Both the position numbers and the translations under genes were made by a program. The notes beneath the pieces are model-generated. The model saw only the letters and a program-made list of their open reading frames with translations, ran no database searches and had not been told where the DNA came from. Shown here in pieces: positions 21,263 through 36,200 of a stretch of DNA of 36,640 nt (its first letter is position 1; each line of letters opens with the position of its first letter). The DNA is from a virus, in IMG/VR virus record IMGVR_UViG_3300013233_000298, positions 1 to 36,640 of that record; one strand, given 5' to 3'.

Positions 21263-23046
21263 TGGCTACCACTCCCTGCGCCCATAGCTCCGCCACCTTG
21301 AAACTGCGCTCTTGGCTGGATGCTTGGTTTACCTTGTGGGTCAATACCACCCATATCTGCTTGGGCAGGGCTTGTCATCTGTTGAGCCATTGGGTTGGGA
21401 ATGATGCTATCAGGGTCGTATCCAGCAACTTCCAATACCTTATCAATTAGAGGCTTATAATTGGCTTGCGAGCCGTATGTAGTCTGAATGATGCCCATTA
21501 GGTTAGAACTGTTAGCTAAAGTATTTGCAAGCTCATTCTGTGAGCTGCTAGAGAACACGTTGTACTTAAAGTCGCCTTGAACTGCGCTTAGATATGGGTC
21601 TAAGTTTGATTTCACACCAATATCTGCTGCTGCACCTGTGAATAGTTCTTCAGGGGCATGTTGAGCAATGGCATTACCAAGCTTCTCATTGAGAGGGAGA
21701 ATAGCAGAGGTCATAAGCATTGTAGCATCAAGTCCTGTAGCTGCGCTGGCATTATTACCCATCATCTGCATAGCTGTAGCTGATTCTTTGCGAACACCTG
21801 ATGCACCTTGACGTAATGGTCCTTCACTAAGCAATTTATCCAAATCACCTTCTGCACGTGATTCTTCATTATGCCCTGTGCTTGTAACATCTGGAACTGT
21901 TTGCCATTGAATCGCATTAAGGTTGTCAACGGAAACAATTTTACCTGGATATGAATATGACAACTGGGCAGGAGTTACGCCAGCATGTGGAGTTACATAT
22001 TTTTCTGGATTTAGGATTAGGGCAACATTATCACGGCGTTGGTTGCGAATGGCATTAACTTCAATTTGAAGGTCGCGAGCCTGTTCTGGCAATGCTGCTG
22101 CATATTGCTCAAATGGTTTAGGATATATTTGTCCAACAACGAACGGCCATGCATGTCCACCATTACCACCCCATTCTGTTTCCAAGGGTTGCGCATCTTC
22201 AAGGATGATTGCATCGCCTAGAGTGACAGTTCTTACAGGCTCCCATTCACCTTTAATCTTTTCAAAATAGAAGTGATAGCGGATTTCCACCATATTATTA
22301 TCGCCACCAAGAACATTGCTGTTTGCAAATGGTGAGATTTGTGATTGACGTTCATACTTAACTGTATTGCCAACAAGGCTTGATTGGTCATTACCATAAT
22401 AGTCGGAAGCTTCTTTAGGCCATTCCTTAGCTTTAACCTTAGAGTCGATATATTCCTTTGTACGGAAGGTTCTAAAGGCTATGTAACGTGCATCATCCAA
22501 ATTATCCCAAGATACGCTGGGGTCAACGCGGAAGTCTTCTGGAGGGATTGTTTCCATTGTTGGATATGATTCAGCGAGGGTTTCTTCTGTAGTTGTATTT
22601 GATTGAATACTTCCATCAGGCATAGTGACGTTTTGTGTCACTTTATTCTTTTCGTATGTTTCAACCCAATCCAGAAAAACTGGGGCATAGTTGTACACAT
22701 AAGCACTATAGCCAACATTATAAATAACCGACGTATAATCTAGGACTGTCTTTAGGTAATAGTTGTGAACCTTCTGCTTAATTTTTGCCCCTACAGCATG
22801 TGAAGTGATGCATTCTTTAATGCTAATAGGCGACTCGCCATCAAATTGAGAAACAACATCGGCAAGTTTGCGGCGTATGTAAGCAGGTATCTTCGGGACA
22901 AACAGTGACGACCTACCAACTTTACGTGGCGTAAGGTGTCTTCCATTTGCTAGAGATTCATTGATAGCCCATTGATGCTGTTGCTGTTCAGCATAAATAG
23001 ACGCATCATCCCATAGCTGGGTAATTTCATCGAGTGTATCAGACAT
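21259..23046 (-). CDS. Portal protein (595 aa)
   Basis: Dodecameric ring at the capsid vertex through which DNA is packaged and ejected. The protein is of portal length, starts with a helical N-terminus ('DTLDEITQLWDDASIYAEQQ'), has 'PPEDFRVDPSVSWDNLDDARY' in the clip/wing region, the stem-like 'ALPEQARDLQIEVNAIRNQR' and the crown-like 'GPLRQGASGVRKESATAMQMM'. I placed the start at ATG 23046, which overlaps the terminase stop as TAATG. An in-frame TTG at 23055 is possible but lies inside the terminase gene. It directly follows the large terminase, the usual order. Confidence 0.88.
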   Translation of the reverse strand: MSDTLDEITQLWDDASIYAEQQQHQWAINESLANGRHLTPRKVGRSSLFVPKIPAYIRRKLADVVSQFDGESPISIKECITSHAVGAKIKQKVHNYYLKTVLDYTSVIYNVGYSAYVYNYAPVFLDWVETYEKNKVTQNVTMPDGSIQSNTTTEETLAESYPTMETIPPEDFRVDPSVSWDNLDDARYIAFRTFRTKEYIDSKVKAKEWPKEASDYYGNDQSSLVGNTVKYERQSQISPFANSNVLGGDNNMVEIRYHFYFEKIKGEWEPVRTVTLGDAIILEDAQPLETEWGGNGGHAWPFVVGQIYPKPFEQYAAALPEQARDLQIEVNAIRNQRRDNVALILNPEKYVTPHAGVTPAQLSYSYPGKIVSVDNLNAIQWQTVPDVTSTGHNEESRAEGDLDKLLSEGPLRQGASGVRKESATAMQMMGNNASAATGLDATMLMTSAILPLNEKLGNAIAQHAPEELFTGAAADIGVKSNLDPYLSAVQGDFKYNVFSSSSQNELANTLANSSNLMGIIQTTYGSQANYKPLIDKVLEVAGYDPDSIIPNPMAQQMTSPAQADMGGIDPQGKPSIQPRAQFQGGGAMGAGSGSQ

Positions 23047-25478
23047 TAGTAACAAACAATGTCATCTTGGAAATCAAGGTCTTTTGGTATGTAAGCTTCA
23101 AATTTATCTCCCACTGTTACAGCAAATCTAAGTGATAGTGAAACGTATCTTGATGCTGCCATCAAATCATCGTGCCTATCAACAATCTTACCATTTTTTC
23201 TATGGTACATTCTATATTCATTAAACCATTCGGTGCATGTCTTAAACACTTTGAAGCGGCCAGTTTCCATTCTATCTAGCATAAATGCAATACCTGCTTC
23301 AATGCCGATGCCGCCACTTCCTTCTTGCGCTCCCATAATTGGAGGGTTTGAAAACTTCTCTGGAAGCATCTTTATCCCCTCAAAGCGATATAGTTCAGAG
23401 ATTGTTTTACCTGATGTTATATCATGTTTCAATCCATCGTGCGGCCATGCTACAGGAATCTTTCCAGCACCTTTCTTTTTTAATACAGAAGCAATCTCTG
23501 TAATGATTGTTCGCTCAATCTTAATTGCTTGGGTGATATATATAATATCCGACTCTGGGTCGTATGCCATATTAGCCCATGCAGTTGGATGGTCATAGCC
23601 AAAGTCAATTCCAGATAGTCTTCGCCAATGGTCGGGGATTTTGAAATCATCGCATGTGATGGCGTCCTCTGGGACGGAGAAAACCAATCCGCTACCAACC
23701 ATTGGCAGCCCCTTCATTCTCATATCACGTTCATGCGGAGGTAAGGATGCTAACATCTGCTCCTTCACACTCTTGGTGATGTGTGGTGCATCATCCCATG
23801 TGGCATTCTGTAGATATTGATGAGGGGCAATCTCTTGTGTGAAGCGTCGTACAATCTCTGTCACGCCATTTTCAGGGGTGAAGGTCATCATTAGGTCACC
23901 ATCTAAATCAACCATGGCTCGGAGGGCTTGTGAATAGATGTCTTGGGGAGGTTCTTCATCAAGCCATACAATATTGGCATTATTCCCCATCCATGCTTCT
24001 TTGCCTGATTCATACGACTGGATGGTGATTTTACTATTCTCACCAGAAACATGCTTAACAAAAACAGCTGATAGGGCATTAGGGATGCCAGCACGCCGAA
24101 CAACGTGAGAGATTGTGTGTTTAGGTAATGCGCCTGTTCCGAATTTTGTAGGGTCGGAGGGCTCACCACATAATTCCTTCTGTACAATATCCCTTGCCCG
24201 TTCAGTGGTTACACCACCAGCAATAATCTTAATGGCATGTGTGTAGCGTTTTCCACGCCACCACTTAGGATATAAGCCTGTTGCATGTATGGCAATTTCC
24301 ATTGCTCCTGCATACGAATTGTGATGCACCATATCGCAGGCAATATAATTGTGGAACTTTTCCACTTCAAAGTCATATACTTCCTTGCGTCCAATAGGAT
24401 TAACGGCTACTATACGCTTACCACTAAGAAGCATAGGAGATGAAAATGCTAGAGAAGATAAAGAGGATGAAGATGGAAGAGAAGAAGTCCCACAAAATGA
24501 TAGCAGAGACTTTAGAGATTCCAAAAAGCCGTGTTGACCGCATGTGTTCAAAGCACGGCTGGACTCATAGGAAGCGTCCTGCTTGTAAGTATGATGTTGG
24601 TTCAATACGTAAGATGATTGAGGTTGAGGAAATGCAGCAATGGAAGGTTGCTGAAATATTTGGAACTGACCGAACAACCATTGAGAGAATTTGTCAAAGA
24701 GAGGGGATACAAACTCAACGCACTGGTCCTCGAACTGGTTCAAACTGCGGCTCATTAAATCCTGCTTGGAAAGGTGGGGTTGCAACTGATAATGGCTATA
24801 TTCTGATAAAGAAGCCAGAGCATCCTCAAGCTGATAGACAAAACTATTGCTATGAACATCGACTTGTTGCAGAGGAAATCCTAGGGCGTTACCTAACTTC
24901 TCACGAAGTAGTGCATCATATTGATGGGAATCGAGTGAATAACTCCCCTCTAAACTTGGAGGTGTTTGCAGATAATGCGCTACATTTAATTCATCACAAA
25001 ATGGAAAAGGGCTTGTGTCCTGCTGGGTCTTATATGCGTCATATAAATCTTCTACAAATGAGTAATTTCCATTTTTCAAAAGAACTCTGTGATGGTCGGC
25101 TGCGCCTAAGCGACTTCCATCATCAAAAATAATATCATAGCAATCGTGCATGCCCTTACTGAATGGGGCGTGCGCTTTAGCCACCACCTGCTTATTGCCG
25201 TCCCAAGCCATAATATCAAAAGACTTGCCTTCTTCATATAGGCTTCCTATAGTGCGTTCACCTGTAGGAGTGGACGTAAGTGTTTGATATATAACGCACT
25301 TCCCAATACGATTGGCTGCCATAAGAAGTCTATGCTTCTTGTCTTTAGAAGACTTGAAAAACTTCTTTTGGTATGGATAGGGAACGAAAGCATTAAGCTG
25401 ATTCTCACGAACACGCCTATCACGCTCTTTAAGAAGCGAGGCAAGCTCAATCTTTCTATCCCTATCCAATTCAGTCAT
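23046..25478 (-). CDS. Large terminase (packaging ATPase-nuclease), interrupted by an intein
   Basis: This is the motor that packages DNA into the procapsid and cuts it. The 810-codon frame encodes extein residues 1-60 and 388-810 around an intein at 61-387, so the spliced protein would be 483 aa, normal for the family. Joined, the Walker A motif reads AANRIGKS. Walker B is IVWLDEEPP (503-511). The C-terminal nuclease has GIDFGYDH (623-630), a central HDGLKHD and DRHDDLMAASRY (767-778), with the acidic residues expected for metal binding. The uninterrupted precursor cannot bind ATP normally because the P-loop is split, so packaging should depend on protein splicing. The gene overlaps its neighbours by 8 nt (upstream) and 1 nt (portal). 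Confidence 0.93.
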   Translation of the reverse strand: MTELDRDRKIELASLLKERDRRVRENQLNAFVPYPYQKKFFKSSKDKKHRLLMAANRIGKCVIYQTLTSTPTGERTIGSLYEEGKSFDIMAWDGNKQVVAKAHAPFSKGMHDCYDIIFDDGSRLGAADHHRVLLKNGNYSFVEDLYDAYKTQQDTSPFPFCDELNVAHYLQTPPSLEGSYSLDSHQYDALLREKLGNALGFPLQQVDVHSNSFVYQLEDALASLSEYSHYQLQPHLSKQDLMSRSLNQFEDQCVEFVSPLFDKFSQWLFGQFQIFQQPSIAAFPQPQSSYVLNQHHTYKQDASYESSRALNTCGQHGFLESLKSLLSFCGTSSLPSSSSLSSLAFSSPMLLSGKRIVAVNPIGRKEVYDFEVEKFHNYIACDMVHHNSYAGAMEIAIHATGLYPKWWRGKRYTHAIKIIAGGVTTERARDIVQKELCGEPSDPTKFGTGALPKHTISHVVRRAGIPNALSAVFVKHVSGENSKITIQSYESGKEAWMGNNANIVWLDEEPPQDIYSQALRAMVDLDGDLMMTFTPENGVTEIVRRFTQEIAPHQYLQNATWDDAPHITKSVKEQMLASLPPHERDMRMKGLPMVGSGLVFSVPEDAITCDDFKIPDHWRRLSGIDFGYDHPTAWANMAYDPESDIIYITQAIKIERTIITEIASVLKKKGAGKIPVAWPHDGLKHDITSGKTISELYRFEGIKMLPEKFSNPPIMGAQEGSGGIGIEAGIAFMLDRMETGRFKVFKTCTEWFNEYRMYHRKNGKIVDRHDDLMAASRYVSLSLRFAVTVGDKFEAYIPKDLDFQDDIVCY
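24385..24413 (+). promoter_or_regulatory. Possible weak promoter for the antisense HNH gene
   Basis: TTGCGT (24385-24390) and TACTAT (24408-24413) are spaced by 17 nt and lie about 30 nt upstream of the HNH start, within DNA that codes on the other strand for the intein C-terminal splicing region. The matches to sigma-70 consensus are only 3/6 and 4/6, so this is a candidate only. Confidence 0.25.
24446..25132 (+). CDS. HNH homing endonuclease encoded antisense within the intein (228 aa)
   Basis: The open frame begins at ATG 24440, but AGGAG (24435-24439) abuts that codon and is 6 nt before the next ATG at 24446, so I prefer 24446. Numbering from 24440: residues 9-41 and 52-90 each look like a helix-turn-helix DNA-binding unit ('MIAETLEIPKSRVDRMCSKH' and 'VAEIFGTDRTTIERICQREG'). 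'LNPAWKGG' (106-113) is the element that often precedes phage HNH domains. 'YEHRLVAEEILGRYLT' (138-153) then 'VVHHIDGNRVNNSPLNLEV' (157-175) with H182/H185 is an HNH_3-type core of the 'EHRLV...VVHHIDGN..NN...NLEV' pattern. It lies wholly inside the intein DNA, between the N- and C-terminal splicing segments, on the opposite strand. It would be expected to cut intein-less terminase genes and spread the intein. Its last ~17 codons also lie opposite intein block B. Confidence 0.9.
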   Translation: MLEKIKRMKMEEKKSHKMIAETLEIPKSRVDRMCSKHGWTHRKRPACKYDVGSIRKMIEVEEMQQWKVAEIFGTDRTTIERICQREGIQTQRTGPRTGSNCGSLNPAWKGGVATDNGYILIKKPEHPQADRQNYCYEHRLVAEEILGRYLTSHEVVHHIDGNRVNNSPLNLEVFADNALHLIHHKMEKGLCPAGSYMRHINLLQMSNFHFSKELCDGRLRLSDFHHQK

Positions 25479-35681: not shown

Positions 35682-35851
35682 AAGTATTACAGAAGGCATT
35701 TGATGAATCTGGATATGCAAACTTACATAAACTGCAAAAGCATTGTTTGGCTATGTCATTGGTTGAAACCATTAGAGCAGCAGGAAAACTTAAGGTTGAT
35801 ATTGATGATGTTATCCTTGAAGCTTATAGGATGATAAAAGATGGCAGTTGA
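35678..35851 (+). CDS. Small hypothetical protein (57 aa)
   Basis: ATGA overlap with the upstream gene; its end overlaps the HNH gene by 11 nt. Helical peptide with basic and acidic faces ('LQKHCLAMSLVETIRAAGK'). No family recognised. Confidence 0.55.
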   Translation: MKVLQKAFDESGYANLHKLQKHCLAMSLVETIRAAGKLKVDIDDVILEAYRMIKDGS

Positions 35852-36200
35852 AAAGCCATATAACAATGGAAGCTGGACTCGTGCCAGATACTTCCAACAA
35901 ATCCGCTCACACTTAAGAAATGCGTTCAAATTTTGGCGGCCCATCACTGAATGTAAAATCAAGGCAAGACGTAAGTCACAGTCTGAAAACAAACGGCTTA
36001 AATGGGAATTTCACTGTGCTGAATGTAATGGATGGTTTGCATCAAAGAATGTGCAGATTGACCATATAACCCCATGTGGAACACTGAAGGAATATGATGA
36101 TATTGTGCCTTTCATTAAACGCCTTACAGCAGAAAGCGGATATAGATGTTTATGCAAGGCATGTCATCAAAATATTACGAATATGGAGCGAAGTAAATGA
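35841..36200 (+). CDS. Free-standing HNH endonuclease (119 aa)
   Basis: A compact HNH nuclease with a zinc knuckle: 'FHCAECNGWFASKNVQIDHITPCG' (57-80) holds CxxC and the H of the HNH, and 'YRCLCKACHQNITNMER' (101-117) holds the second CxxC and final H-N. The basic N-terminal segment (IKARRKSQSENKRLKWE) should bind DNA. Many phages have one such gene. Here it is in the early region, away from the terminase. It is of a different type from the antisense HNH in the intein. Confidence 0.88.
   Translation: MAVEKPYNNGSWTRARYFQQIRSHLRNAFKFWRPITECKIKARRKSQSENKRLKWEFHCAECNGWFASKNVQIDHITPCGTLKEYDDIVPFIKRLTAESGYRCLCKACHQNITNMERSK

Follow-up and report, generated by a model that had tools for sequence, protein, structure and literature searches.

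The large terminase (TerL) gene of a 36,640-nt viral contig (IMG/VR record IMGVR_UViG_3300013233_000298, positions 1 to 36,640; hereafter the window) very probably carries a mobile intein with a homing endonuclease that is encoded separately, by a gene antisense to the linker of that same intein. Both reading frames, their joint conservation, selection on both, the splice-site residues, exact empty sites and a wide distribution were established by sequence comparison. The features of the locus are given in Table 1.

Table 1. Features of the terminase intein and its antisense HNH gene in the window, and two mini-intein loci from related contigs.
Feature	Position	Strand	Basis or remark
Large terminase (TerL) ORF, 810 codons, intein-interrupted	23046..25478	-	ORF call, family matches
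N-extein, ending ..AANRIGK, first part of Walker A	25299..25478	-	
Intein, 327 aa, Cys1 to His-Asn before Ser+1	24318..25298	-	residues 61-387 of TerL ORF
Hint N-half, intein residues 1-95, blocks A and B	25014..25298	-	AF2 pLDDT 93-98
Intein linker, residues 96-289, antisense of HNH gene	24432..25013	-	predicted disorder (AF2 pLDDT mostly 31-45), divergence pattern
Hint C-half, residues 290-327, blocks F and G	24318..24431	-	AF2 pLDDT 89-98
C-extein, remainder of terminase ATPase and nuclease	23046..24317	-	
HNH endonuclease gene, 228 aa from ATG 24446 (alternative ATG 24440)	24446..25132	+	antisense to intein
Shine-Dalgarno-like AGGAG, 6 nt before ATG 24446	24435..24439	+	conserved in L001
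First helical HTH-like unit, HNH protein residues 2-37	24449..24556	+	model
Second helical HTH-like unit, HNH protein residues 51-86	24596..24703	+	model
HNH (bba-Me) catalytic core, EVVHHIDGN..NN..N..H	24854..25006	+	family matches, alignment, model
Double-coding stretch: HNH C-tail (+), Hint block B region (-)	25014..25132	both	
Natural mini-intein, 135 aa, GK↓T site	L114:2602-4695		
Natural mini-intein, 135 aa, GK↓T site	L116:2812-4905		

The terminase intein and the gene opposite its linker

In Pfam, the TerL ORF matches Terminase_6N, Terminase_6C and Intein_splicing, the last at 1.8e-6, under the curated cut-off. Cys1 of the intein directly follows AANRIGK, and the intein ends in ..VHHN↓S (..FHNYIACDMVHHN, then Ser+1 of the C-extein; arrows mark splice or insertion points). 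Joined across the intein, the exteins read AANRIGK↓SYAG (AANRIGK↓SYAGAMEIAIHATG) and match intein-less TerLs such as that of Pelagibacter phage Baldr, AGNRVGK↓SFSG (AGNRVGK↓SFSGAMEIAYHATG), in keeping with the joined Walker A motif noted in a preliminary description of this DNA. The class 1 residues C1, block B His, H326 and N327 are present, with Ser+1 in the window, and block B reads A..H, not T..H. The intein is an exact in-frame insertion for which there are empty-site homologues, and it lies in one open frame of 810 codons rather than in the separate ORFs of a split intein. No Rfam family was found in the window, and there is thus no evidence of an intron.

The AF2 model of the intein gives pLDDT 89-98 for both Hint halves (residues 1-95 and 290-327) and values mostly below 50 for linker residues 96-289, and the nearest solved structure found by Foldseek is the NpuDnaE intein (E 2.7e-6). 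These halves and the Cys1 and His-Asn residues bear out the earlier view of a complete intein with splicing motifs only at its ends. Its own frame lacks an endonuclease domain; the HNH sits on the other strand, where the ORF at 24440-25132 (+, 230 aa) matches HNH_3 (4e-8) and several PHROG HNH families (best 7.7e-26). Some 70% of the intein (residues 57-285) lies opposite the HNH gene. The preliminary description had placed this gene antisense to the spacer; the spacer is indeed covered, but the HNH tail also overlaps part of the splicing domain.

ATG 24446, the start chosen in that description, is the likely one, favoured by the AGGAG upstream of it. A Shine-Dalgarno match of at least 5 nt stands in front of 36 of 76 HNH starts; for internal start-like codons the figure is 26 of 367. 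A promoter scan for the HNH gene returned six promoter-like matches on the two strands (2.6 expected), with none just upstream of the HNH start on the plus strand. The product has the features of an HNH homing endonuclease, namely the HNH motif, a predicted bba-Me fold and a predicted DNA-binding module. Its model (mean pLDDT 84) contains two helical HTH-like units, which agrees with the tandem HTH noted earlier, followed by the bba-Me core and a disordered C-tail. No PDB match to this model was significant by E-value in Foldseek; the most relevant was the HNH enzyme I-HmuI (probability 0.98, E 0.06). According to the two models, folded domains on one strand mostly lie opposite disordered sequence on the other; the clear exception is a short stretch near intein residues 82-95, where both products are predicted to be helical.

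A related viral contig (L001), whose terminase is 72% identical, keeps both open frames: the same 810-codon frame and an antisense ORF of 230 aa that aligns without gaps to the window HNH at 60% identity. The stretch from the Shine-Dalgarno sequence to the ATG is conserved as well.

Distribution of antisense HNH genes within inteins

Single-sequence HNH scans retrieved no relatives, and alignments of two and four rows were needed. An HNH alignment search of IMG/VR yielded 80 loci, and in 68 of them the HNH lies antisense inside a long open frame that also gives splicing-domain matches. Among the remaining 12, one (L083) has the HNH antisense between split-intein halves and 11 lie under no long antisense frame. 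The HMM built from four inteins spans the linker, whose sequence is the reverse reading of the HNH gene and might alone produce a match; the loci were therefore re-scored with Hint-only HMMs. In a second search seeded from another clade, all 77 new loci were antisense within an intein; a few of these contigs also occur in the first set, and the 77 are drawn from at least 525 relatives detected. The divergent terminase inteins L012 and L013, found by an intein-guided search, each have an antisense HNH too. The layout seen in the window is real, and is one instance of a widespread family.

A single register is kept in 75 of 75 sequences of the first set and in 77 of 77 of the second: codon position 1 lies opposite position 1, and position 2 of each strand opposite position 3 of the other. 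The HNH tree put the window and L001 near free-standing HNHs; a tree with all antisense HNHs as one group had a higher likelihood and was not rejected (p-AU 0.70), so a single origin is the simplest reading of these sequences.

Most of the inteins occupy two P-loop positions, GK↓S/T and before SGK[ST]. Host proteins are mostly terminases of several families, and also include an SNF2 helicase (L087), a primase-helicase (L183) and an AAA ATPase (L083). HNH distances correlate better with Hint distances (Mantel r 0.72) than with extein distances (0.53), and median identities are 18% for exteins, 42% for HNHs and 35% for Hint domains. HNH distances that track Hint over diverged exteins are as expected if intein and HNH gene spread together, although fast TerL divergence could partly explain the contrast. 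A second intein in addition to the antisense-HNH intein seems to be present in the hosts L133:452-3976 and L122:1701-4892, from LAGLIDADG_3 matches, and in L123:1608-4877, from a Hint_2 match and two Intein_splicing stretches.

The layout is present in nine cultured phages: the Pectobacterium/Dickeya phages Koroua, Amona, Ymer, Abuela, Sabo, Taid, Pappous and Setonix, and Pseudoalteromonas phage PHS3. PHS3 (L100:2896-5019, KX912252) has a single 708-aa intein-bearing terminase frame overlapping the antisense HNH, a region that GenBank annotates as an HNH gene between terminase fragments, with a shortened terminase; the Koroua TerL is annotated as a hypothetical protein. Mobile inteins and their homing enzymes can evidently be missed or mis-annotated in this way, and the cultured phages make the antisense-HNH intein directly testable. 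Among the phage-collection records opened, the layout occurs only in the Pectobacterium/Dickeya phages and PHS3, and in the others the HNH and its neighbouring genes share one strand. An empty site corresponding exactly to that of Koroua (FVAGFG↓TGKSQTM) is present in Klebsiella phage phiKp_7-2, and the empty sites of intein-less relatives, FVAGFG↓TGKS and NRVGK↓S, fall in the ATPase P-loop. Homing predicts patchy presence among near-identical genomes; such a presence/absence contrast was seen here only at ~67% DNA identity, between the Pectobacterium and Klebsiella phages.

Proposed mechanism and the role of the HNH protein

Our account of splicing, HNH expression, the cleavage site and homing draws on the known behaviour of these protein families and on the patterns above. 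The terminase precursor would be translated with the intein, and the Hint halves would excise it; the linker peptide, a mere antisense reading of the HNH gene, would be discarded along with it. The HNH protein would be translated from an antisense transcript using its own ribosome-binding site, an arrangement that would uncouple endonuclease expression from host-gene expression within an intein. It may bind DNA through its two HTH units and would probably cut or nick intein-less terminase genes at the Walker A DNA during mixed infection, after which the cut allele would acquire intein and HNH gene as one unit by recombination.

The HNH could instead be a genuine, selected gene with another main job, such as aiding DNA cutting by the terminase or excluding rival phages through cuts in terL, with the intein merely sheltering it. 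There are precedents for HNH proteins acting together with terminases (HK97, for example; PMC10448857), and terminases make up most of the hosts found. The helicase, primase-helicase and AAA ATPase hosts, however, tie the HNH to P-loop insertion sites and not to packaging. Moreover, most of the TerL relatives among the matches listed in the phage collection align only outside the intein, and all six that were checked have no intein, which argues that packaging does not need the HNH. We consider this explanation unlikely.

We lean towards a broader interpretation of the mobile intein and its antisense endonuclease gene, as an undescribed and large class of viral inteins. In this class, splicing would license an antisense gene inside an essential gene, the discarded linker being free to serve as the negative of the mobility enzyme; the unit would have moved into several P-loop positions and proteins, with mini-inteins arising by deletion and split inteins when the frame breaks. 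Splicing away one of the two protein readings would be a neat way out of the difficulty that overlapping antisense genes pose.

Selection on both strands

Across 52 distinct HNH genes, the intein frame contains no stop codon, against about 318 expected from synonymous shuffles. The contrast with 11 free-standing relatives, which have 2-14 stops each in the family register, is the fairer statement because open frames helped define the loci. L083 had been considered as a free-standing control and was dropped from this comparison, because its antisense HNH lies between the two parts of a split intein.

Differences by codon position were counted over 18 non-overlapping pairs. In the HNH core they number 261/207/631 at positions 1/2/3, and HNH identity (76%) exceeds intein-frame identity (46%). 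In the HNH tail, which lies opposite the Hint N-half, the bias is gone (145/195/178), and the intein frame is the more conserved (65% against 61% for the HNH). The two patterns differ with a chi-square p of ~3e-20. The counts argue strongly that, opposite the linker, the HNH core is under purifying selection while the linker protein drifts; absence of such selection had been named in the preliminary description as a finding that would tell against it. All 33 aligned antisense members share the same HNH core residues, and C1, H70, H326 and N327 show no variation across 33 inteins. The strand under constraint can be seen to change along the gene, and antisense-HNH inteins offer a large natural data set for double-strand coding.

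The same description had also named, as a result that would tell against it, a broken HNH ORF beside an intact intein in most relatives. A search with the splicing domain as bait recovered 17 loci: 15 have an intact antisense HNH, two (L114 and L116, near-identical and of one lineage) are 135-aa mini-inteins without linker and without HNH, and none combines an intact intein with a broken HNH. On their sequences, L114 and L116 are a deletion form of the antisense-HNH intein family. Such mini-inteins might serve as small splicing tools.

These results bear on whether the HNH is a once-active, now decaying relic whose frame persists merely through the need for an uninterrupted terminase frame. 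In favour of this, loss forms (L114 and L116) exist, and terminase constraint alone would hold the minus frame open; the plus frame, however, is itself constrained, as seen in the third-position excess in the core, the invariant catalytic residues and the conserved Shine-Dalgarno sequence, and the 17 bait-search loci include no broken HNH within an intact intein. We regard decay as very improbable. That the HNH frame is a long antisense ORF arising by chance, as GC-rich genomes do contain, or an assembly artefact has a negligible likelihood and is already refuted by the comparative data, given the strength of the HNH family matches (to 7.7e-26), a GC content of 42%, recurrence in one register in nine cultured phage genomes and more than 100 independent contigs, and avoidance of stop codons (with synonymous codons of the window HNH shuffled, the intein frame acquired a mean of 7.7 stops and stayed open in 0 of 20,000 shuffles).

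In L083 (L083:2802-4808), at the P-loop of an AAA ATPase, the family register is kept but the frame is broken by six stops, and the antisense HNH lies between an N-half of 146 aa and a C-half of 36 aa, the latter starting from an ATG of its own that has an SD-like GAGGT. This looks like a fractured gene, a split intein derived from the continuous form, and suggests a route from continuous to split inteins.

Relation to known systems

Mobile class 1 inteins with an in-frame LAGLIDADG or HNH domain share with the window intein the Cys1, His-Asn and Ser/Thr/Cys+1 chemistry, the Hint fold, insertion at a conserved active-site motif of an essential gene, an endonuclease between the Hint halves and mini-intein loss forms. 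The window intein differs in that its endonuclease is an opposite-strand gene with its own Shine-Dalgarno sequence, while the in-frame insert is a disordered antisense reading.

Fractured genes, which Dassa and co-workers reportedly described in 2009, are said to have split inteins with an endonuclease gene between the halves. A separate endonuclease gene between intein halves is common to both systems, and L083 is such a form with the HNH antisense; in the window, by contrast, an unbroken intein frame overlaps the HNH gene. Group I introns, such as nuclear rDNA introns, can carry endonuclease genes on the antisense strand and likewise have a mobility gene antisense within a splicing element, but they use RNA splicing and have no second protein frame to keep open.

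The nearest described case found is the ShiLan domain, a same-strand, out-of-frame HNH in a phage methylase, expressly distinguished from inteins (Arsenault, Gosselin, Gogarten 2025, PMC11855218). Here too an HNH is hidden in a stretch that is open in the host gene frame, and the antisense family is distantly related in sequence to the methylase HNHs of ShiLan type (Mantra, Starcevich, Totinger). ShiLan lies on the same strand, with no intein or splicing domain and no Shine-Dalgarno sequence reported, whereas the window HNH lies on the strand opposite a complete Hint domain. Mycobacteriophage TerL inteins (Kelley et al. 2016, PMC5050341) share the insertion in the terminase ATPase domain; that report does not mention antisense or opposite-strand endonucleases. 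PMC11855218 refers to a preprint (10.1101/2025.01.02.630785) that deals with actinobacteriophage inteins of non-canonical architecture. We found no intein with an antisense endonuclease in the open full-text literature, whose coverage excludes that preprint, which may describe something similar, and Gorbalenya 1998.

Other HNH-type genes

A scan of cellular genomes returned only more distant HNHs, nearly all of them not antisense to a Hint domain. One locus in an Actinomycetes MAG (L219:2730-4385) pairs an intein-like Hint ORF, ending in VHN↓C, with an antisense HNH that uses another register and belongs to another subfamily, one rich in cysteine (zinc-finger-like). Its sequence suggests that L219 is possibly an independent origin of the architecture; a search of viral contigs found no relatives of it. 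Cysteine-rich HNH ORFs also lie antisense inside the long frames of polyvalent-protein genes at L237:2-3358 (LPD5/LPD1) and L244:3-4382 (LPD37), with no intein seen. Within the window, a small ORF at 35841-36200 (+) with CXXC pairs and a QIDHITPCG motif resembles a separate HNH-type protein.
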